Shown: one piece after another, positions 49,274 to 61,586 of the stretch
Layout of the letters: each line of letters opens with the position of its first letter
Position numbering within the stretch: position 1 is the first letter of the stretch
Assembly (NCBI RefSeq): GCF_006540305.1
Contig: NZ_BJOR01000001.1
Span: forward strand, 744,001 to 808,000
Reading direction: 5' to 3'
Length of the DNA: 64,000 nt
From: Streptomyces sp. 6-11-2
Lineage (GTDB): Bacteria; Actinomycetota; Actinomycetes; Streptomycetales; Streptomycetaceae
The notes under the pieces: generated by a model
What the model was told of the DNA's origin: nothing
Seen by the model: the letters and a program-made list of their open reading frames with translations, nothing else
The model's database searches: none
Position numbers and translations under genes: made by a program

Positions 49274-49933
49274 TCAGGACAGGTGCGCCACCGCGTCCAG
49301 GTGGGGCAGGTGGTGGTCGAGCCGCTCCCGCTTGGTGCGCAGGTAGGTGATGTTGCTCTCGCACGGCGGGATCAGCAGCGGTACCTGCTCGGCGACTTGG
49401 ATGCCGTGCCGCACCAACGCATCGCGCTTGCGCGGATTGTTGGACATCAGCCGCACCGAGCGCACGCCCAGGTCGCGCAGCATCCCGGCGGCGACGCCGT
49501 AGTCGCGGGCGTCGACCGGCAGACCGAGCGCCAGGTTGGCCTCGACCGTGTCCAGGCCCTCCGCCTGAAGGGCCATCGCCCGCAGCTTGGCGAGCAGCCC
49601 GATGCCCCGGCCCTCGTGCCCGCGCAAGTAGACGACGATGCCGCTGCCTTCGGCGACGACGGCGCGCAGCGCGGCGTCGAGCTGGTCGCCGCACTCGCAG
49701 TGCTGGGAGCCGAAGGCGTCCCCGGTCAGGCACTCCGAGTGCAGCCGGACCAGGACCCGGTCGGTGCCGATGTCGCCGTGCACCAGCGCGACTTGTTCGT
49801 CACCGCGGTCGTGGTCCAGGTAGCCGACCGCCTGGAATTTCCCGTACACGGTGGGCAGCGGGGCATTCACGACGCGCTCCACGCCCGTGCGCCGGGCCGA
49901 CTTCTTGCCGAGTACGCCGAGGTCTTCTGTCAT
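49274..49933 (-). CDS. ribA: GTP cyclohydrolase II paralogue, FAPy-forming type
   Basis: 219 residues. Zinc Cys residues are intact (HSECLTGDAFGSQHCECGDQ: Cys68, Cys79, Cys81), as are RGHEGRGIGLLAKLRA and the C-terminal LRTKRERLDH. Formate-releasing enzymes have Tyr after KxRA (KIRAY in E. coli); here residue 120 is Met (KLRAM). From published work on the three S. coelicolor paralogues, the copy with Met at 120 stops at the formylated pyrimidine FAPy. So this is probably not a riboflavin enzyme but the entry step of the adjacent cluster. ATG 49933 follows TTAGGAATCAGATC. Divergent from the creatininase gene over 38 bp. Confidence 0.92.
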   Translation of the reverse strand: MTEDLGVLGKKSARRTGVERVVNAPLPTVYGKFQAVGYLDHDRGDEQVALVHGDIGTDRVLVRLHSECLTGDAFGSQHCECGDQLDAALRAVVAEGSGIVVYLRGHEGRGIGLLAKLRAMALQAEGLDTVEANLALGLPVDARDYGVAAGMLRDLGVRSVRLMSNNPRKRDALVRHGIQVAEQVPLLIPPCESNITYLRTKRERLDHHLPHLDAVAHLS

Positions 49934-49971
49934 GATCTGATTCCTAAGCAGAGACGAAAGGCCGGAAAACA

Positions 49972-50754
49972 ATGAGTGGTTCGGGAACGCGGCCGACGGC
50001 ACATGGTCTGTTGCCGGCGGACACCACGCAAGACGTACGGACGCGGGGGGCGGACCTCTCACGGCAGGTGGCGGTGCTGCCGGTGGGCAGTTTCGAACAG
50101 CACGGCCCGTTCCTCCCGTTGGCGACCGACACGCTGGTCGCCTGTGCCATCGCCCGCCGGATCGCCGACGCGTACCCGGTGCATCTCCTTCCGCCGGTGA
50201 CGATCTCCTGCTCGCACGAGCACGCCGCCTGGCCGGGAACCGTCAGCATCTCTTCCGTGACCCTTCATGCGGTGGTGCGGGACATCGCGGACTCGCTGCG
50301 CCGCTCCGGCGTCGAGGCCCTGGTGGTCGTCAACGGTCATGGCGGCAACTACGTGCTGGGCAACGTCGTTCAGGAGGCCTCCGTGCGCGGTGAGCGCCTC
50401 GCGCTGTTCCCCGCCGCGGAGGACTGGCAGACGGCCCTCGAGGCGGCCGGGGTGCGCACCTCGCCGCTCACCGACATGCACGCGGGGGAAATCGAGACCT
50501 CCATTCTTCTGCACGCTCATCCGGAAATGGTCCGGGCCGGTTACGAGTCCGCCGATTTCGTCGCGGACGACCGGCGGCATCTGCTCACCACCGGAATGTC
50601 CGCCTATACCGAATCGGGCGTCATCGGCCGCCCTTCCCTGGGTTCCGCGGAAAAGGGTGAGGAACTGCTGAACAGCCTGGCGGATTCCTTCGGTCCGTAT
50701 TTCTCGCTGCTCACGTCCGAGGGATTGGAGTTGCCGGGGAGCGGGCGCGCATAG
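49972..50754 (+). CDS. Creatininase-family amidohydrolase, predicted FAPy deformylase
   Basis: 260 residues. Metal ligands: Glu42 and His44 (GSFEQHGPFLPLATDT), Asp53, His123 (VNGHGGNY) and Glu173 (HAGEIETS). The family includes creatininase, MftE and the archaeal ArfB deformylase, which removes formate from the FAPy made by archaeal GTP cyclohydrolase III. Since the divergent neighbour is a FAPy-type cyclohydrolase, hydrolysis of the formamide to the diaminopyrimidine is the natural prediction. Its 3' end overlaps the convergent flippase-like gene by 151 bp. Confidence 0.88.
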   Translation: MSGSGTRPTAHGLLPADTTQDVRTRGADLSRQVAVLPVGSFEQHGPFLPLATDTLVACAIARRIADAYPVHLLPPVTISCSHEHAAWPGTVSISSVTLHAVVRDIADSLRRSGVEALVVVNGHGGNYVLGNVVQEASVRGERLALFPAAEDWQTALEAAGVRTSPLTDMHAGEIETSILLHAHPEMVRAGYESADFVADDRRHLLTTGMSAYTESGVIGRPSLGSAEKGEELLNSLADSFGPYFSLLTSEGLELPGSGRA

Positions 50755-51974
50755 TCCCCGCCGGAGGCGCGGCCGGGTTCCGGGGCCGGTTCGGCGGGGC
50801 GGGACCCGGCGCGCATCGCGGTGTACCAGCGGGCGACGAGGACGAGGGCGCCCGGCAGGCCGGCCACGAAGCTCAGCACCCCGTACACCACGGCCACGGC
50901 CACTCCGGTGCTCGCGCCGAGTCCGGCGGCGCCGAACGCCCAGGCGGCGACGCCCTCGCGGGGCCCGAACCCGCCCACGTTCAGCGGCAGTCCCATGGCG
51001 ACCAGCGCGAGGACGGCCAGGGGCAGCAGGACGAGCACCGGGGCGGCGAGGCCGGCGACGTGCGCGGCGACCACGAACATCCCGATGTGTCCGGCCAGGA
51101 CGACGGCCGAGGACAGCGCGACACCGGGCCCGTTGCGGCGGGACAGCAGTCCCTCGCGGGCCTCGGCGAGGGTGCGGCGCAGGGCTCGCCCCCGGTGCGA
51201 GGGCGCGCGGTTCATGCGCAGGGCGAGGACGATGGCGAACGCGCCGGCGGCGGCGAAGGCGAGCAGGGCCACGAGGTGCCGCGTCTGGTCGCGCACGGGG
51301 GACGGCAGGGTGAGGAGGACCGCCGCGCCGGTGACGGCGAGCGCGATCTGCCCGGCGACCCGTTCGAGGACAACGGCCCGCACGCCGCGTCCCAGATCGC
51401 CGGCGCTCTGCCCGTGCCGCACCGCCCGGTGCACATCGCCCAGGACGCCGCCGGGCAGCGCCGCGTTCAGGAACAGCGCACGGTAGTAGTCGGCCACCGC
51501 CGGGCCGAGCGGCAGCCGGATGCGCAGGCCACGGGCCACCAACTGCCAGCGCCAGGCGCTGAACACGGTGGTGACCACCCCGATGCCCAGCGCCACGAGG
51601 AGGGTCGGCGTGTCGATCCGTCGCAGCCCGTCCAGGAAGACGCCGGTGCCCAGCCGCCACAACAGCACGGCGAGGATGGCGACTCCGGCGACGGTACCGA
51701 AGTGGGTCCGCGCAGCACGGGTGTTGAGGCGGGAGAGCGCAGCCGCGAGCGGGGTACGGCCGCGGAGGTCGCCGCCTGATGTGCCGTGGGCACGGGGAGC
51801 GCTGGGCGCGTTGGACACGTCGGCCCCGTCAGGTGCGCCGGCCCCTCCGGGTACGCCGGCCCCGTCAGGTGCGCCGAGCGCGTCGGGGGCGGACACGTCG
51901 GCGGCACCGGGAGCGTCGTACTCCCCCGCCTTCGGGTCGCGTACGAGAGGTGCGTCCACCGCCTGCGCGCTCAT
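50604..51974 (-). CDS. Flippase-like membrane protein (LPG-synthase TM / UPF0104 fold)
   Basis: About 456 residues. An Ala/Gly/Pro/Asp-rich N-terminal ~85 residues (repeats of GAPDGAGV type) precedes seven to eight helices with the family's TVFSAWRWQLVARGLRI, ALFLNAALPGGVLGDVHRA and LPLNVGGFGPREGVAAWAFG. Relatives include the membrane half of MprF and archaeal AglD, linked to lipid flipping or glycolipid synthesis. The last ~50 residues, antisense to the creatininase gene, look non-conserved (SEKYGPKESARLFSSSSPF). Starts in the ATGA shared with the methyltransferase stop. Confidence 0.82.
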   Translation of the reverse strand: MSAQAVDAPLVRDPKAGEYDAPGAADVSAPDALGAPDGAGVPGGAGAPDGADVSNAPSAPRAHGTSGGDLRGRTPLAAALSRLNTRAARTHFGTVAGVAILAVLLWRLGTGVFLDGLRRIDTPTLLVALGIGVVTTVFSAWRWQLVARGLRIRLPLGPAVADYYRALFLNAALPGGVLGDVHRAVRHGQSAGDLGRGVRAVVLERVAGQIALAVTGAAVLLTLPSPVRDQTRHLVALLAFAAAGAFAIVLALRMNRAPSHRGRALRRTLAEAREGLLSRRNGPGVALSSAVVLAGHIGMFVVAAHVAGLAAPVLVLLPLAVLALVAMGLPLNVGGFGPREGVAAWAFGAAGLGASTGVAVAVVYGVLSFVAGLPGALVLVARWYTAMRAGSRPAEPAPEPGRASGGDYARPLPGNSNPSDVSSEKYGPKESARLFSSSSPFSAEPREGRPMTPDSV

Positions 51975-53088
51975 GCGGCACGATCCGTCGGCCGGGACAG
52001 CGCCAGCAGGTCGTTGTGGTGCACGACGACCCGCAACTCCCCCGCCGCGCAGGCCTCCAGGCGGTCGGCGAGGTAACGGTCCGCGCGCGGCTTCAGCTCG
52101 GGACGCTGTTCGACGGCCGCGCCGACCCAGCCGCGCAGCCACTGGGCGGTCAGTTCGCGCTGATCGGGGCCGAGCCGCCAGGGGCTCGGGTCCAGTCGTA
52201 CGGTGGCGCCGTGCGCGGCGAAGGCCTCGCAGGCCGCGTCGACCGCGTCGGGACCGAGCAGTCCGGTGCGCCGCTGATGGGCGTTGAACGCCTCGGTGAT
52301 CTCGGCGTCCAGCGGATCGGCCGTGGTCAGTTCGACCCGGCCGGCCACCGAGAGGGTCAGCAGCGCCGGGCAGCCCGCCCCGGCGCAGGCCGCGGCGAGG
52401 GTGTCGATCTCCTCGCGGGTCAGGACGTCCAGCAGCGCGGAGGCCGTGACCAGGGACGCGCCGGACAGGGCGTCCGGGGTGAGCCGGGCCACGTCGCCGC
52501 GCCGCGTCTCCACGGTGACCCGGCTGCCGTCGGCGGCGGCGCGCGGGGAGGCGACGGCCGCGAAGTGCAGCAGGTAGGGGTCGCGGTCGTGCAGGACCCA
52601 GTGCTGGGCGCCGTCCAGCCGGGAGGCGAGCCAGCGGCCCATCGAGCCGGTGCCGCATCCCAGGTCGTGCACCACGAGCCCGCCGTGCCGGCTCGGCAGG
52701 TTGACCAGCCGGATCCGCAGCGGATCGAGCAGTTCCGTCGCCCGCGCGGCGGCGTCCGCCGCCTCCCGGAGCTGCAACCACTCGGGTGCGTACCGGGGCG
52801 GCTCCTCCTCCGTCGCGCCCTCCCGAAGCCTTACGGTGGCCCGTTCCCCGGGCCGCTGCGCGGGCCCGGCCCCCGGAATCACCGCCGGGGGCTCGGAGTG
52901 CTGAGCCGCCTGTGGGGAGAACGCGCCGGTGTCCGCCATGGCCGAGGGGTCCTTTCCTGCGAGCCGCGCCGTCTCGGGGGCCGATCGCCCCGCCGCGCCC
53001 GGGGCGGGAGCGGGCCGCTCCCACGTGCCCGGCTCGGACGGGATGGCGCCGGTGGGCCGGGCGGCCTCCACGGACGTATCCGGCGTGG

Positions 53089-53092
<4 letters not shown>
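51971..53092 (-). CDS. SAM-dependent methyltransferase
   Basis: 373 residues. A ~95-residue Pro/Ala-rich N-terminus precedes a class I Rossmann methyltransferase: VVHDLGCGTGSMGRWLASRL (SAM-binding loop), HWVLHDRDPYLLHF (acidic end of strand 2) and LVTASALLDVLTREEIDTL. Substrate unknown; in the cluster it could methylate the pyrimidine/pterin or its sugar. ATGA overlaps at both ends tie it to the glycosyltransferase and the flippase-like gene. Confidence 0.85.
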
Positions 53093-54779
<1,687 letters not shown>

Positions 54780-54820
54780 TCAAGGTCAGGCGCTCTTGTC
54801 GTCCCGGATCGGACGATCCG

Positions 54821-55804
54821 TCATGAACGGTCGTCGTACCTGACCCGGTGGCACAGCGCCGGAATCTCGCCGGAGGCGAGCCTCGGCATCACCTCCGGCA
54901 GTTCCTCGAACGCGCTCTCCCCGGTGACGAGGGCGTCCAGGGCCGGGTCGGCGAGCAGGTCGAGCGCGAGGGCCAGCCGGTCGGCGTACGTGCGGCTGGA
55001 GCGGCGGGCCGGGGAGACGGTGCCGACCTGGCTGCCGCGGATGACCAGCCGGCGGGAGTGGAAGGCCTCGCCGAGCGGGAGGGCGACGCGCCGGTCGCCG
55101 TACCAGCTCAGTTCGAGGACGGTGCCCTCGGGGGTGAGCAGTTCCAGCGCGCGGGCGAGGCCCTGATCGGTGGCGCTGGCGTGCACGACGAGGTCGCACT
55201 CGCCGAGCGCGTCCCCGGGCAGCGCGAAGCCCACGCCGAGCGCCTCGGCGACCTCGGCGCGGGCCGGGTCCGCGTCCACCAGTTGGACGCGCACGCCGGG
55301 GAACCGGGCCAGCAGGGCCGCCACCGAGCAGCCGACCATGCCACCGCCGACGACGGCGATACGGTCGCCGACCAGGGGCGCGGCGTCCCACAGCGCGTTC
55401 ACGGCGGTCTCGACGGTGCCCGCGAGCACCGCGCGCCCGGCCGGCACGTTCTCCGGCACACGGGTCACCGCGCTCGCCGGGACGACGTAGCGGCTCTGGT
55501 GCGGATGAAGGCAGAAGACCGTACGCCCGGTCAGCTCCCGCGGGCCCTCCTCCACCACCCCGACACTGAGGTAGCCGTACTTCACCGGGCCCGGGAAGTC
55601 GCCCTCCTGGAACGGCGCCCGCATGACCTCGTACTGGCTCTCGGGCACCTGGCCGCGGAACACGAGCGTCTCCGTTCCGCGGCTGACCCCGGAGTAGAGC
55701 GCGCGGACGACCACCTCGCCCGGCCCGGGTTCCGTAAGGTCCGTCCGGCGTATCTCGCCGTGGCCCGGCGAGGTCAGCCAGAAGGCGCGGGCGGAGCGGT
55801 TCAT
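54821..55804 (-). CDS. MDR-family dehydrogenase lacking the usual zinc Cys
   Basis: 327 residues, medium-chain dehydrogenase/reductase fold. N-terminal GroES-like domain with [17 protein letters not shown], where zinc alcohol dehydrogenases have a CxxDxH or CGTD-type Cys; no catalytic Cys is present. NAD(P) site [24 protein letters not shown] and [15 protein letters not shown]. Similar to BchC/threonine-dehydrogenase-like proteins. ATG 55804 follows CAGGAGGATTCTCG. Probably acts on a hydroxyl or ketone of the cluster product. Confidence 0.87.
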
Positions 55805-55914
55805 CGAGAATCCTCCTGAACGATCGGGAAGTTGTTCACGTACCGAGAAGTGCACAGGCCGCGCACAACGTACGCGGCGTTGATCGACTCTGTCACTCGG
55901 CCGGAGGATGTTCG

Positions 55915-56709
55915 GTGGCCCTGAACAACACGTACGACGCACGGCTGGTCCAGCAGGAGACCGCGGTGGGAGCGGGCGCGCAGATCCTGTTGCTGGCCCT
56001 GCTCGGCCCGGCGATCGGCATGGGTCCCGCGGGCTGGGCGACCGGTCTGGTCTTCGCGGTCGCCACCTGGGCGGTGCTCTCCCGGGCGCTGCACCGGTCG
56101 CGGCTCCGTTCCTTCGGCCCGGCCAACCGGGTGACCCTGGGCCGGGCCGTTCTCGTCGGTGGGGTGACGGCACTGGTGGCGGACTCCTTCGAGAGCGCGC
56201 CGCCGGTGTCGCTGCTGGTCGCCCTGACGACGGTGGCCCTGATCCTGGACGGCGTCGACGGCAAAGTGGCCCGTCGTACGGGCACCTCCACGGCGCTCGG
56301 CGCCCGCTTCGACATGGAGGTGGACGCGTTCCTGATCCTGGTGCTCAGCGTGTACGTCTCGACGATGCTCGGCCCGTGGGTGCTGCTGATCGGCGGTATG
56401 CGGTACGTCTTCGTCGCCGCCGCCCGCGTGCTGCCCTGGCTGAACGTGCCCCTGCCGCCGAGCACCGCCCGCAAGACGGTCGCCGCGCTCCAGGGCGTCT
56501 GCCTGCTGCTCGCCGGCGCGGACCTGCTGCCCCTGCCGGCCACCGCCGGTGTGGTGCTGCTGGCGCTGGGACTGCTGGTGTGGTCGTTCGGCCGGGACGT
56601 GCTGTGGCTGTGGCGGACCGCGCGGGTGCGGGACATCGCCGCCGGGACCGGCGGGCTGCTGCGGGCCGCCCCGGTCGAGGAGGTGCTGGAGCCGGCGCGG
56701 GCCGCGTGA
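55915..56709 (+). CDS. CDP-alcohol phosphatidyltransferase
   Basis: 264 residues with about six helices. The full catalytic motif is present: Asp112-x2-Asp115-Gly-x2-Ala-Arg-x8-Gly129-x3-Asp133-x3-Asp137 ([10 protein letters not shown] ... GARFDMEVD). These enzymes displace CMP from a CDP-linked substrate with an alcohol, giving a phosphodiester, commonly a phospholipid. Divergent from the dehydrogenase gene over 110 bp, with GTG 55915 after GGAGGATGTTCG. It may attach the cluster product to a lipid or phosphoalcohol; alternatively it is an independent lipid gene. Confidence 0.88.
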
Positions 56710-56857: not shown

Positions 56858-58258
56858 TCAGGCGGCCCCGCGCCCCAGCTCCCCGTGCGCGCGCACGATG
56901 TCCGCGTACCGGTGGCCGCTGCCCTTGATGGTGCGGGCCTGGGTGGCGTAGTCGACGTGGACGAGGCCGAAACGCTTGGCGTAGCCGTACGCCCACTCGA
57001 AGTTGTCCAGCAGCGACCAGGCGAAGTAGCCGGCCAGCGGGGCGCCCTTGCGGGCGGCGGAGGCGCAGGCGGCCAGGTGTCCCACCAGATAGTCCTGGCG
57101 TTCGGGGTCGTCGACCGTGCCGTCGGGGCCCACGGTGTCGGGGAAGGCGGAGCCGTTCTCGGTGACGTAGAGCTTCCGGGCGCCGTACTCGTGGGTGAGG
57201 CGCAGCAGCAGCGTCTCGATGCCGGACGCGTCGATCTCCCAGTCCATGCCGGTGCGGGGCACGTCCGGGCGGCGTACGGAACGGGCGTGGGGCACCGGCC
57301 CGTCGGGGTCGTCGGCCACCGTCGCCGGGAAGTAGTAGTTGAGGCCGAGCCAGTCCAGCGGGGCGGCGATGATGTCGAGGTCGCCCGGGCGCTCGGGGAG
57401 GTCGACGCCGTAGACCTCGCGCATGTCGGCGGGGAAGCCGCGGCCGTGGACGGGGTCCAGCCACCAGCGGTTGACGTGGCCGTCGTGGCGGCGGGCGGCG
57501 GCCTCGTCCTCGGGACGGTCGGTGGCGGGGAAGACGGTGGAGAGGTTGTTGACGATGCCGACCTCGGCGCCGGGCGTCGCGGCGCGGATCGCCTGGGCGG
57601 CCAGGCCGTGGCCGAGGAGCAGGTGGTAGGAGGCGCGGACCGCGGCCGTCAGATCGGTCAGGCCGGGAGCCATCTTGCCCTCGAGGTGACCGATCCAGGC
57701 GGAGCACAGGGGTTCGTTGAGGGTGGTCCAGTGGGACACCCGGTCGCCGAGGCGTTCGGCGACGACCGAGGCGTAGGCGGCGAAGTGCTCGGCGGTCTCG
57801 CGCTCGGGCCAGCCGCCGCGGTCCTGGAGGGCCTGCGGCAGGTCCCAGTGGTAGAGGGTGACGGAGGGGGTGATGCCCGCCTGGAGCAGTCCGTCGATCA
57901 ACTCGTCGTAGAAGTCGAGGCCCTTGGGGTTCACGAGGCCGTCGCCCTCCGGCATCACGCGCGGCCAGGCGATCGACAACCGGTAGGCGTTCAGGCCCAG
58001 TCGGCTCATCAGCGCGACGTCCTCGCGCCAGCGGTGGTAGTGGTCGCAGGCGATGTCGCCGTGGTCGTCGTTGTCGATCTTGCCGGGAGTGTGGGAGAAG
58101 GTGTCCCAGATGGACGGCGAGCGGCCGTCCTCGGCGACGGCTCCCTCGATCTGGTACGCCGATGTGGCCGTGCCCCACCGGAAGTCGTGCGGGAGTGCGG
58201 CGAGGTCAATGGCGTCGGACACGGAAGTCCTTTCGAGACTTGGGGTGTTGGTGGTCAC
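56858..58258 (-). CDS. bglC: GH1 beta-glucosidase, intracellular
   Basis: 466 residues. GH1 motifs: [15 protein letters not shown] at the N-terminus, [14 protein letters not shown] (acid/base Glu), [11 protein letters not shown] (nucleophile Glu) and [20 protein letters not shown]. Splits imported cello- or other beta-oligosaccharides. GTG 58258 overlaps the permease stop (GTGA); an alternative GTG at 58222 has a good AAAGGA site. Last gene of a four-gene import operon, as in the Streptomyces cebEFG-bglC and related loci. Confidence 0.92.
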
Positions 58259-59124
58259 TTCACCGCTCCCGCGGTGAGCCCCGCGACGAGGTAGCGCTGA
58301 AGCAGCAGGAAGCCGGCGACCACGGGCACGCTGACGACGAGCGAGGCGGCCATGATCTGGTTCCAGTAGACGTCGTTGAGCGTGGAGTAGCCCTGGAGCC
58401 CCACGGCGAGCGTGCGGGTGGTGTCGTTGGTCATCACGGACGCGAAGAGCACCTCACCCCAGGCGGTCATGAAGGCGTAGACGGCGACCGCGACGATGCC
58501 GGGGATCGCGGCCGGCACGACGACCCGGAACAGCGCGCCGAGCGGCCCGCAGCCGTCCACCAGTGCCGCCTCGTCCAGGTCGCGCGGCACCGAGTCGAAG
58601 TACCCGATCAGCATCCAGATCGAGAACGGCAGCGAGAAGGTGAGGTACGTCAGGATGAGGCCCCCGCGCGAGCCGAACAGGGCGATGCCGGTGGCGTTGC
58701 CGATGTTGACGTAGAGCAGGAACAGCGGGAGGAGGAACAGGATGCCCGGGAACATCTGCGTCGACAGGACGGTGACCGTGAAGACGCGCTTGCCGCGGAA
58801 GCTGTAGCGGCTGACGGCGTACGCCGAGAACACCGCGATCACCACCGAGCAGACCGTCGCCGCGCCCGCCACGATCAGCGAGTTCACGAAGTACCTGGCG
58901 AGCGGGACCGTCGACCAGATGTCGATGTAGGGGCGGAAGGTCAGACCGCTCGGCAGCCAGCGGAACTTGCCCGTGACGTCCGCGAGCGGCTTCAGCGAGC
59001 TGGAGACCATCACATAGACGGGCAGCAGGACGAAGCCGGTCAGCAGGGTGAGGAAGATCCGCCGCGTCCACAGGAAGGAGCGCGGCGGCGCCGTCGGCGA
59101 ACGGTGGGCGTGTGCGTCAGACAT
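58255..59124 (-). CDS. Beta-glucoside ABC permease, MalG/CebG type
   Basis: 289 residues, six helices, EAA loop [24 protein letters not shown]. Overlaps both neighbours by four to eight bases. No ATPase in the operon, consistent with use of a shared MsiK-type ATPase. Confidence 0.9.
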
Positions 59125-60130
59125 CGGCGGTCCTCCGTCCGCGTGAGGTGAGCGCGAGGTAGACGCCGGTGACGACCAGCAGGAAGAGCAGCAGCAGGAC
59201 GGACATCGCGGAGCCGGTGCCGAAGTTCCAGGTGACGAACGAGGCTTGGTAGATGTGGACCGAGATGAGGTCCGCGGCCTCGGGAGCGGCCTTGCCGAAC
59301 AGCACGTACGGCGTGTTGAAGTCGTTGAACGTCCACAGGAACAGCACCAGGACCAGGACCTGGTTGACCGGCCGCAGGGACGGCAGGGTGATGCGGCGGA
59401 TCTGCTGCCACATGCCGGCGCCGTCCAGCGCGGCGGCCTCGTACAGCTCGCGCGGGATGTTCTGGAGTCCTGCCATGACGATGAGGAAGGCGAACGGCCA
59501 GCCCTTCCACACCGACACCGTCAGCAGCGCGATGAAGCTGTTGTCGCCGATGAGCCAGAACGAGGGCTTGTCGGTGAGGTGCAGCTGGTCGTGCAGGACG
59601 TGGTTCACCAGGCCGTTGTCGTGCTGGAACATGAACACCCAGGTGATGACGGCCGCGTAGACCGGCAGCGCGTAGGGCACCAGGAACAGGGCGCGCAGCA
59701 GGCCGCGTCCGCGGAAGGTGTCCTGCATGCAGACCGCGGCCACGGTGCCGATGAGCCAGCACAGGCCGACCGACAGCAGGGTGAAGGCGACGGTGACGAG
59801 GAAGGAGTGCAGCAGCGCCTCGCCGACGGGGGCGTTGAAGTCCACCGACATGCGGTAGTTGTCGAGGCCGGACCAGGGGGCCGTGCCCCAGTCGCGGATG
59901 TAGAACTGGGTAAGCTCCTTGAAGCTCATCACGACGCCGATCACCATCGGCACCAGGTGGACCAGGAGTTCGAGCACCAGGGCGGGCAGAAGCAGCAGGT
60001 ACGGCAGCGACACGCGTCCGAGCCACCCGGGGCGGCGCGGCCCGCGCGTCGCACCGGGTGGGTTCACGGGTGCCGTCGTCCCGCCGGTGTGCGCGGGAGC
60101 GGTGGTCGTCATGTGGGTGTCCGCGCTCAC
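59117..60130 (-). CDS. Beta-glucoside ABC permease, MalF/CebF type
   Basis: 337 residues, six helices, EAA loop [24 protein letters not shown]. Starts at GTG 60130 in a GTGA overlap with the binding-protein stop, or at ATG 60112. Partner of the CebG-type permease. Confidence 0.9.
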   Translation of the reverse strand: MSADTHMTTTAPAHTGGTTAPVNPPGATRGPRRPGWLGRVSLPYLLLLPALVLELLVHLVPMVIGVVMSFKELTQFYIRDWGTAPWSGLDNYRMSVDFNAPVGEALLHSFLVTVAFTLLSVGLCWLIGTVAAVCMQDTFRGRGLLRALFLVPYALPVYAAVITWVFMFQHDNGLVNHVLHDQLHLTDKPSFWLIGDNSFIALLTVSVWKGWPFAFLIVMAGLQNIPRELYEAAALDGAGMWQQIRRITLPSLRPVNQVLVLVLFLWTFNDFNTPYVLFGKAAPEAADLISVHIYQASFVTWNFGTGSAMSVLLLLFLLVVTGVYLALTSRGRRTADV

Positions 60131-61443
60131 TTCGCCGGCATCTGCTGCTGGGCCTTGAGCAGCTTGGCCTTCACCGAGGCCGTGGTGACCGCGCGCCCGG
60201 CGGCGGCGTCGGCGAACAGTTCCTTGACGGCCGTGCCGACGGCCGTCTCGAACTGGGACTCGTCGGCGACCTGCGGCAGCGCGGCGGCGCTCGTGGCGAG
60301 GGTTTCCTTCAGCACGGCGTTGGCCGGGGTGTTGAAGGCGGCGTCCGACTGGGCGGCCCCGACCGGCGGGATGGTGCTGTAGGCCGTGTTGAGGATCTTC
60401 TGCTCCTCGTCACTGGTCATGAACTTCACGAAGTTCGTGGCGCCGTCGAGGTTGTGGCTGTTCTTGAAGACGGCGATGTTGATGCCGGCCACCATCGAGT
60501 TCACCTGCGTGCCGGTGCCGGGGGTGCCGGACTGCACCGGGACCGGGGCGATGCCGTAGGCGTCCTCGCTCATGCCCTGGGACTTGAGGTTGGCGGAGGC
60601 GGACTGCCACAGCAGCATCGCCGTCCGGCCCTTGGCGAAGTCGCTGACCGACTGGTTCTGCGCGTACTCGGCGTTGCCCTGCGGGATGACCTTGTCCTTG
60701 GCCATCAGGTCGACGTACTGCTTGACCGCCGTGACCGCGCCGTCGCTCGTGAAGTCGGGCTTGCCGTCCGCGGTGAAGAAGTCGGCGCCGTGCTGCTTGG
60801 CGAAGACGAAGACGTGGTGGATGTTCTCCGAGACGTTGGCGCCCTCGGCGCCGATGACCTGCTTGCCCTTGGCCTGGATCTTCTTGCCGTCGGCGACGAG
60901 TTCGTCCCAGGTGGCCGGCGGCTTGGCGATGCCCGCGTCGGCGAAGATCTGCTTGTTGTAGTAGAGCGCGTACGCCATCGAGTACAGCGGTACGGCGGCC
61001 GGGTCCTGTCCCTGGGCACCAGTCGAGCCGAGCGCGGAGTCGACGAAGCGGTCCTTGCCTCCGATCTTGTCGAAGTTCTTGGCGTCCCAGGGCAGCAGCC
61101 CCCCGGTGGCCTGGAGGGAGGCGCTCCAGGTGTTGCCGATGTTGAGGACGTCGGGGCCCTGGCCGGAGGTGGTCGCGGTGAGGATCCGGTTCAGCAGGTC
61201 CGACCAGGGCACGACCTCCAGCTTCACCTTGATGCCCGTCTGCTTCTCGAACTTGTCGAGTTCGGGCTGGAGGACCTTCTTGTCGATCTCGATGCTGGCG
61301 CCCTGGTTGGAGGCCCAGTACGTGAGCGTCTTCGGCGAGTCGCTGGACCCGCCGCCCGTCGACGAACCGCCTCCGCAGGCCGAGACGGCTAGGGCGAGAG
61401 ACATGGTGACGGCGCCTACGGCCGCGGCTCGGATACTGCGCAT
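60127..61443 (-). CDS. Beta-glucoside ABC solute-binding lipoprotein
   Basis: 438 residues. Lipoprotein signal ending LALAVSACGGGSS; MalE-type fold with LTYWASNQGASIEIDKKV, VEVVPWSDLLNRILTATTSGQGPDVLNIGNTW split by the hinge, and FAKGRTAMLLWQSASANLK. ATG 61443 follows CAGGAGCC; upstream open frame is rejected. First gene of the operon. A TTAA-N13-TTAA element lies ~145 bp upstream. No regulator gene is adjacent. Confidence 0.9.
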   Translation of the reverse strand: MRSIRAAAVGAVTMSLALAVSACGGGSSTGGGSSDSPKTLTYWASNQGASIEIDKKVLQPELDKFEKQTGIKVKLEVVPWSDLLNRILTATTSGQGPDVLNIGNTWSASLQATGGLLPWDAKNFDKIGGKDRFVDSALGSTGAQGQDPAAVPLYSMAYALYYNKQIFADAGIAKPPATWDELVADGKKIQAKGKQVIGAEGANVSENIHHVFVFAKQHGADFFTADGKPDFTSDGAVTAVKQYVDLMAKDKVIPQGNAEYAQNQSVSDFAKGRTAMLLWQSASANLKSQGMSEDAYGIAPVPVQSGTPGTGTQVNSMVAGINIAVFKNSHNLDGATNFVKFMTSDEEQKILNTAYSTIPPVGAAQSDAAFNTPANAVLKETLATSAAALPQVADESQFETAVGTAVKELFADAAAGRAVTTASVKAKLLKAQQQMPAK

Positions 61444-61586
61444 GGCTCCTGGTGTCCCTTTCCGGGAGTCGAGAACCGCGAGGAGTCCTCCGGACGCCGA
61501 CACCGCTCGCGTTCCCATGTCCCGTGCTCGTTCTCGTGCGATCGGGTGGGGTTCGCTCGGTTCGACTTCCGAAGGCGCCTCAGGGC

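Follow-up and report, generated by a model that had tools for sequence, protein, structure and literature searches.

The closest described relative of the gene cluster considered here, an eight-gene set at positions 49274 to 56709 of a 64,000-nucleotide stretch of the Streptomyces sp. 6-11-2 genome (the window), is the orthologous SCO6655/SCO6650 region of Streptomyces coelicolor. To our knowledge, the papers of the Bandarian laboratory on that region describe single enzymes only, and neither a pathway nor a product. SCO6655, a GTP cyclohydrolase II (GCHII), reportedly stops at the formamidopyrimidine FAPy because a tyrosine is replaced by Met120, as Spoonamore and colleagues are said to have found in 2006; we take this position to be the switch residue that decides between FAPy and the deformylated product. 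The window cyclohydrolase carries the same FAPy-type methionine, and comparison with related loci indicates that the creatininase-family protein encoded beside it probably deformylates FAPy. Around these two steps we propose a route by which the cluster would make a GTP-derived, pterin-like, glycosylated, membrane-linked metabolite, and we give the route as a whole an even chance of being correct. An initial annotation of this DNA had pointed to homologous genes in S. coelicolor; the link is borne out by the PTPS-fold protein (PTPS, 6-pyruvoyltetrahydropterin synthase), which matches the SCO6650 structure 3d7j over its whole length (E = 4.7e-79). The annotation also knew of no described product, and none is named in the open-access literature searched, most subscription papers lying outside that search.

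Parts of the proposed chemistry have counterparts elsewhere. The archaeal ArfA/ArfB/ArfC route shares with it FAPy, deformylation, and reduction before deamination; it differs in that the bacterial clusters use GCHII and in that their route would leave riboflavin synthesis at the ribityl stage. The synthesis of tetrahydrobiopterin and pterin glycosides (GTP cyclohydrolase I, PTPS, sepiapterin reductase, and a family 4 glycosyltransferase [GT4]), likewise brings together a PTPS fold, an oxidoreductase, and a glycosyltransferase, whereas the window has GCHII in place of GTP cyclohydrolase I, a medium-chain dehydrogenase (MDR) in place of a short-chain reductase, a PTPS protein short of one zinc histidine, and lipid-type enzymes. 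The PTPS-fold protein, with the motif GPAQRLHGA, belongs to the same superfamily as the COG0720 groups PTPS-I to VI, among which PTPS-V is described as still unclear in function (PMC5041015).

The route would run in seven steps. The Met120 cyclohydrolase would open GTP to FAPy (step 1), and the creatininase-family protein would take off formate to give 2,5-diamino-6-ribosylamino-4(3H)-pyrimidinone 5′-phosphate (APy; step 2); in other lineages, one Tyr-type cyclohydrolase would perform both steps. A RibD-type reductase, presumably encoded elsewhere in this genome, would reduce C1′ to yield a ribityl compound (step 3), and the MDR would oxidize the C2′ hydroxyl to a ketone, closing on the 5-amino group to form a 7,8-dihydroneopterin-type pterin (step 4), so that a reduction plus an oxidation would stand in for the Amadori rearrangement of GTP cyclohydrolase I. 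The PTPS-fold protein would process the side chain (step 5), the GT4 enzyme and a methyltransferase (MT) would decorate the molecule (step 6), and the CDP-alcohol transferase would join the product, or part of it, to a lipid phosphate, with the flippase-like protein carrying it across the membrane (step 7). Both the pterin route and the end product are put forward as hypotheses. The eight families grouped here by the initial annotation are all confirmed, seven by scores above the Pfam cut-off and the MDR, which has an ADH_zinc_N match, by predicted structure:

49274..49933, minus strand: GCHII, predicted to form FAPy, with Met120 and the motif RAMALQ (Pfam GTP_cyclohydro2, 223.6 bits; TIGR00505)
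49972..50754, plus strand: creatininase-family amidohydrolase, predicted FAPy formamidase (Pfam Creatininase, 216.7 bits)
50604..51974, minus strand: flippase-like membrane protein, its 3′ end overlapping the creatininase gene (Pfam LPG_synthase_TM, 115.8 bits)
51971..53092, minus strand: class I S-adenosylmethionine-dependent MT with a low-confidence N-terminus of about 94 residues (Methyltransf_25, 30.0 against a cut-off of 27; predicted structure, Foldseek)
53089..54273, minus strand: GT4 glycosyltransferase (Pfam Glycos_transf_1, 97.3 bits)
54270..54668, minus strand: PTPS-fold protein, SCO6650 orthologue, HGH changed to HGA, TTG start (Pfam PTPS, 82.6 bits; 3d7j)
54821..55804, minus strand: MDR, weakly BchC-like, with SGVSRGTE and without the usual zinc ligands (predicted structure, motif columns)
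55915..56709, plus strand: CDP-alcohol phosphatidyltransferase with the complete signature motif (Pfam CDP-OH_P_transf, 49.9 bits)

The comparison covers 156 loci. Seventy-six are actinobacterial and come from a phylum sample (296 genomes, 65 with a PTPS match; besides the window, 20 of the 64 other places were fetched, namely the 18 strongest and two weak ones) and a class sample (393 genomes, 64 with an MDR at E <= 1e-30; places not already in the set were added). The other 80, the named loci, are the best of at least 568 relatives found by scanning contigs of named genomes with an MDR alignment. Plasmid searches gave 28 and 19 records, and annotated neighborhoods were examined for 15. Because the composition-based gene finder at times picked antisense frames, families named by it alone were not counted as evidence.

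The window cyclohydrolase scores 225.1 bits against the RibA/GCHII model TIGR00505 (cut-off 205.85), and its residue 120, a methionine, places it with SCO6655 among the non-Tyr enzymes. The 76 actinobacterial loci yield 55 GCHII genes, counting that of L051, in which no MDR was found. Tyr occupies the switch position in 17 of them; the other 38 carry Met (25), Leu (7), His (4), or Gln (2). A creatininase gene is missing from the fetched stretch of all 17 Tyr-type genes and accompanies 36 of the 38 non-Tyr genes; for the remaining two (G581 and G616), the creatininase gene lies about 10 and 14 kb from the MDR. The named loci hold 37 GCHII genes, 36 with Tyr and one unreadable, and creatininase occurs in none of the 80. 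Outside the fetched clusters, every readable GCHII (21 of 21, from L001 and 20 loci; two fragments in G041 were unreadable) has Tyr, and the 8.7-Mb genome that contains the window has a single further GCHII outside the cluster, with Tyr at the switch position. The two genes are also missing together. Three loci of one family (L106, L117, and L119) keep MDR, PTPS, GT4, MT, flippase, and CDP-alcohol transferase and lack both GCHII and a close creatininase; each of their genomes has one GCHII, of the Tyr type. In Streptomyces G816 (L292), both genes are absent within 19 kb and the other six are kept. The creatininase metal-site motifs (SFEQHG, ATDT, and HAGEIETS) are present in the window protein.

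A precedent for this reaction exists: BrbF of S. meliloti and Brucella, a member of the creatininase family, has been assayed as an FAPy formamidase that releases formate from FAPy (PMC9478397). The likeness of BrbF to the window protein is at the level of the family, the FAPy formamidase role of the latter being predicted here, and the settings differ, in that BrbF serves riboflavin and has a cyclohydrolase partner described there as undiscovered, whereas the partner gene in the window lies next door. Since the creatininase tracks the non-Tyr GCHII, is absent with it in four loci, and has BrbF as a precedent, it is the likely FAPy deformylase, and we regard steps 1 and 2 as highly probable. 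The pairing of an FAPy-type cyclohydrolase with a deformylase, which the initial annotation had postulated, is thus upheld by the switch residue, the co-absence, and the published precedent. The comparison gives the creatininase a testable role and accounts for a cyclohydrolase that goes no further than FAPy. It also makes non-Tyr GCHII one candidate kind of enzyme for the undiscovered partner of BrbF (PMC9478397).

A number of observations weigh against this assignment. With 37.1 of the 180 bits that the ArfB model NF033501 calls for, the creatininase is not filed as ArfB; it comes nearer to the peptidase MftE, the closest NCBIfam model, although still under the cut-off (TIGR03964, 136.2 of 172 bits). 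The creatininase-type GCHII genes form one clade (support 84 in a quick tree), so that creatininase may have been gained in a single event, to which the co-absences add perhaps three events. That clade lies next to the Tyr-type cluster genes of L135 and L137 and then the housekeeping actinobacterial GCHII; the other Tyr-type cluster genes of actinomycetes lie apart from it. For the Tyr-type loci, the region beyond the stretch was examined in four genomes (G192, G436, G635, and G401); in G635 a creatininase with 62% identity occurs away from the cluster, next to a regulator-like gene and with no GCHII close by. At L231, L289, and L290, a relative about 60% identical adjoins a regulator-like (helix-turn-helix) gene, with no cyclohydrolase in the stretch, and these unlinked copies indicate that the family has another role too. 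By lists compared by eye, a creatininase match occurs without MDR in 21 of 295 Streptomyces genomes. Those of L289 and L290 are among them; another, G746, has an assembly gap, and its creatininase adjoins a Met-type GCHII. In the other direction, the MDR is present in 149 of the 295 genomes, and 147 of these have a creatininase match. The likeness to MftE and the relatives that do without a cyclohydrolase would suit an enzyme acting on an amide or peptide bond of a later intermediate rather than on FAPy. We think this very improbable, given that the gene follows the switch residue of GCHII and is missing, jointly with that cyclohydrolase, from loci that retain the other six.

Deformylation of FAPy remains our preferred role for the window creatininase. 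A mycofactocin system was rejected on the MftE score. An ordinary riboflavin operon was also rejected, because the hits of the ten scanned proteins include no ribB, ribH, or ribE family, save the cyclohydrolase domains of bifunctional RibBA models, and because the genome has another GCHII, of the Tyr type, outside the cluster. As a separate observation, plasmid pNG700 of Haloarcula marismortui (L305) has a creatininase-family gene 5.8 kb upstream of the MDR.

The families stay together well beyond this genome. All 23 other Streptomyces loci fetched, located through PTPS or MDR, have the full eight-gene set, as do 35 of the 36 creatininase loci among the 76, all 36 of which have GCHII. Across the 76 loci, PTPS was found in 76, GT4 in 74, MDR in 73, GCHII and flippase in 55 each, CDP-alcohol transferase in 54, MT in 53 (a second MT type in 10), creatininase in 36, the RibD-type reductase in 34, a sulfatase-like gene in 17, and FolB (dihydroneopterin aldolase) in 9. 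The three loci in which no MDR was found are L041, a short contig, and L051 and L052, which hold other PTPS relatives. In the 80 named loci the counts are MDR 80, PTPS 69, GT4 69, RibD-type reductase 52, GCHII 37, MT 34 (second type 12), CDP-alcohol transferase 24, flippase 23, PlsC-like 15, FolB 14, sulfatase-like 8, and YceI 7. MDR and PTPS lie on the same strand in all 142 loci that have both, with PTPS no more than 400 bp downstream in 135. By the titles of these best 80 loci, MDR-PTPS-GT4 sets also occur in Rubrobacter, Chloroflexota, Thermomicrobiales, several Proteobacteria classes, Opitutaceae, and haloarchaea, and three rhizobial plasmids bring together GCHII, MDR, PTPS, GT4, MT, RibD family, CDP-alcohol transferase, flippase-like, sulfatase, and cytochrome b genes. 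A gene set confined to Streptomyces is excluded by these loci in other genera and phyla. The co-occurrence across Streptomyces genomes that the initial annotation had proposed to look for is therefore real and extends much further than it proposed: it did not foresee Proteobacteria, Chloroflexota, or archaea, and its inventory, correct for the eight families, did not cover the RibD-type reductase, sulfatase-like, FolB, YceI, and cytochrome b genes of related clusters. We are dealing with a conserved pathway, present in about half of the sampled Streptomyces and in members of several other phyla, whose product we have not found described.

A few MDR relatives depart from this pattern. The match contains one stop codon in Streptomyces G926, G794, and G821 and in G330, through a pseudogene or an assembly error; L176 (Micromonospora), L189, and L207 have a lone MDR relative, with no PTPS or GT4 found in the stretch. 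In Streptomyces G732 the MDR, PTPS, and a reductase were seen, and G731 has a second, lone MDR.

The case for steps 3 and 4 starts from the RibD-type reductase gene, found in 86 of the 156 loci and, in the 76-locus set, in all 17 loci with a Tyr-type GCHII. The gene order GCHII, reductase, MDR, PTPS, GT4 is repeated across phyla. The best solved relatives of the reductase of L049 are APy reductases (6p8c, E = 5.5e-38; 2azn, E = 2.3e-32), and its score passes the cut-off of the general ribD_Cterm domain model (187.4 against 150.15). According to its predicted structure (mean pLDDT 89), the window dehydrogenase is a clear medium-chain dehydrogenase: the model matches this family with E down to 7.5e-21 and lies nearest to threonine, sorbitol, idonate, butanediol, and other alcohol dehydrogenases, although by Pfam its ADH_zinc_N score (25.6) is below the cut-off of 31.8 and NAD_binding_8 stands at 22.0 against 21.9. 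FolB genes, present in 23 of the 156 loci, fit an oxidation by the MDR to a dihydroneopterin-type pterin.

The haloarchaeal loci bear on the same steps. Among 19 of them (13 of the best 80 named loci and six plasmid records), none has a RibD-type reductase or GCHII, and six have a GTP cyclohydrolase IIa, annotated or matched by archaeal queries, which in four lies directly upstream of the MDR; one of the six, L304, was chosen after its annotation was seen. GTP cyclohydrolase IIa makes FAPy, and archaeal riboflavin synthesis reduces before deamination, so that in haloarchaea the ribityl compound would already be at hand. The simplest reading is that the MDR acts on the ribityl compound.

Other results run counter to a reduction followed by an oxidation. 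The cluster reductases stay below the cut-off of the APy-reductase model TIGR01508 (152.7 for L049, then 128.1, 132.5, and 96.3, of 186.45). No RibD-type reductase is present in 31 of the 36 creatininase-type loci or in the window, and the six RibD_C hits elsewhere in G000 are not specific to cluster-bearing genomes, as such genes also occur in cluster-free Streptomyces. The usual zinc ligands are absent from the MDR, which leaves its reaction unsure, and of the 58 bacterial named loci that carry PTPS, 9 lack both GCHII and the reductase. In five Streptomyces loci the reductase gene sits between flippase and creatininase, at the site where these two genes overlap in the window, and the reductase has probably been lost or moved there. 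With these points on both sides, we hold the replacement of the GTP cyclohydrolase I Amadori step by reduction at C1′ and oxidation at C2′ only tentatively, at somewhat less than an even chance. If correct, the proposal is a second way from GTP to the pterin skeleton.

The initial annotation had instead assigned a rearrangement to the PTPS-like protein. In a fuller form of that idea, APy would be rearranged and its ring closed by the PTPS-fold protein, in the manner of GTP cyclohydrolase I; a dihydropterin would be the substrate of the RibD-type reductase, and the MDR would modify the side chain like sepiapterin reductase. A glycosylated pterin would still be the outcome. GTP cyclohydrolase I and PTPS have the T-fold in common, and BchC, which the MDR weakly resembles (50.2 of the 291.25 bits of TIGR01202, below the cut-off), oxidizes a hydroxyethyl side chain; the scarcity of the reductase in creatininase-type loci points the same way. 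The zinc site does not. The window protein reads HGA where PTPS and QueD have three histidines (H..HGH), and it reaches 36.4 of the 89.25 bits of the QueD equivalog TIGR03367. In 144 PTPS rows the zinc positions are HHH in 68, HHA in 63, and other in 13, some perhaps misaligned; all 37 rows from creatininase-type loci, the window included, are HHA. With one zinc histidine lost, the reaction of the HHA branch has probably changed. The reductase of L049, moreover, is closest to APy reductases and matches dihydrofolate reductase just at E = 2.5e-4. We accordingly judge a PTPS-catalyzed rearrangement unlikely, and the assignment made in the annotation does not hold up well: with the zinc motif broken and a reductase gene adjoining the MDR in many relatives, the reduce-then-oxidize route is at least as likely.

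The HGA type of PTPS also occurs outside actinomycetes. Plasmids of Methylosinus, Thiodictyon, and Peteryoungia (L295, L296, and L298) place the pathway on large Proteobacteria plasmids with a PTPS of the actinomycete HGA type, which suggests transfer between phyla.

A product other than a pterin, namely a pyrimidine, lumazine, or deazapurine, would accord with the GTP cyclohydrolases that tubercidin- and toxoflavin-type clusters use. The FolB genes point to a pterin, and the annotated proteins include no lumazine synthase or QueE-type enzyme, no search having been aimed at them; we consider a non-pterin product a rather remote prospect.

The late steps are proposed from the gene families. The nearest solved relatives of the GT4 enzyme include MshA-type enzymes, and the predicted MT model gave generic matches only (Foldseek). 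The GT4, MT, flippase-like, and CDP-alcohol transferase genes accompany the core across phyla in changed orders, and four proteobacterial loci have the core, all four of these genes, and a sulfatase-like gene. This shared distribution speaks for a single product, both glycosylated and associated with the membrane. On the other side, flippase is found in 0 of 13 haloarchaeal and 0 of 8 Rubrobacter named loci, and CDP-alcohol transferase in 6 and 0 of these, as would be expected if the envelope genes (GT4, flippase, and CDP-alcohol transferase) merely neighbored an independent cofactor operon, whether by chance or through shared regulation. Because flippase and CDP-alcohol transferase lie beside the core in Actinomycetota and several Proteobacteria classes with gene orders changed, we find such a neighborly arrangement hard to credit, about as much so as a non-pterin product. 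A glycosylated, lipid-linked product of steps 5 to 7 is, by our estimate, as apt to prove right as wrong; should it turn out to be a lipid-linked pterin, membrane cofactors or envelope lipids would gain a new class.

A membrane sulfatase/LtaS-like gene, found in 17 actinobacterial loci (L039, L093, and L102 among them) and often near the CDP-alcohol transferase, was not found in the window cluster. YceI proteins bind isoprenoids; their genes occur in seven loci, and genes annotated as cytochrome b occur in the plasmid loci L296, L298, L299, and L302, which hints at a membrane redox role. In S. coelicolor, SCO6652, a hypothetical protein, shows log2 ratios of 0.8, 4.3, and 4.1 at 24, 48, and 72 h for second versus first mycelium (PMC3610822). 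Counting from PTPS (SCO6650) to GCHII (SCO6655), SCO6652 is probably the cluster methyltransferase, and its rise in the second mycelium hints at a function during aerial growth or sporulation. PMC2853524 includes SCO6655 in a list of genes expressed contrary to predicted flux. We speculate, with considerable doubt, that this is an old pathway common to bacteria and haloarchaea for a lipid-linked, glycosylated, reduced pterin that serves as a membrane redox carrier, with reductase and dehydrogenase bypassing GTP cyclohydrolase I, in Streptomyces perhaps during sporulation.

Some details of the window remain to be recorded. Creatininase and CDP-alcohol transferase are on the plus strand and the remaining six genes on the minus strand. 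Four genes are joined by 4-bp overlaps, as had been noted, but not all of these are ATGA: the PTPS/GT4 joint is GTGA, and those of GT4/MT and MT/flippase are ATGA. The flippase and creatininase genes are convergent and share about 150 bp, the flippase frame extending to 50604, and the cyclohydrolase probably starts at 49933 rather than at the end of the open frame, 50062. Adjoining the cluster, at 56858-61518, translations judged by eye indicate a GH1 beta-glucosidase gene and ABC sugar transporter-like genes (two permeases and a binding protein).

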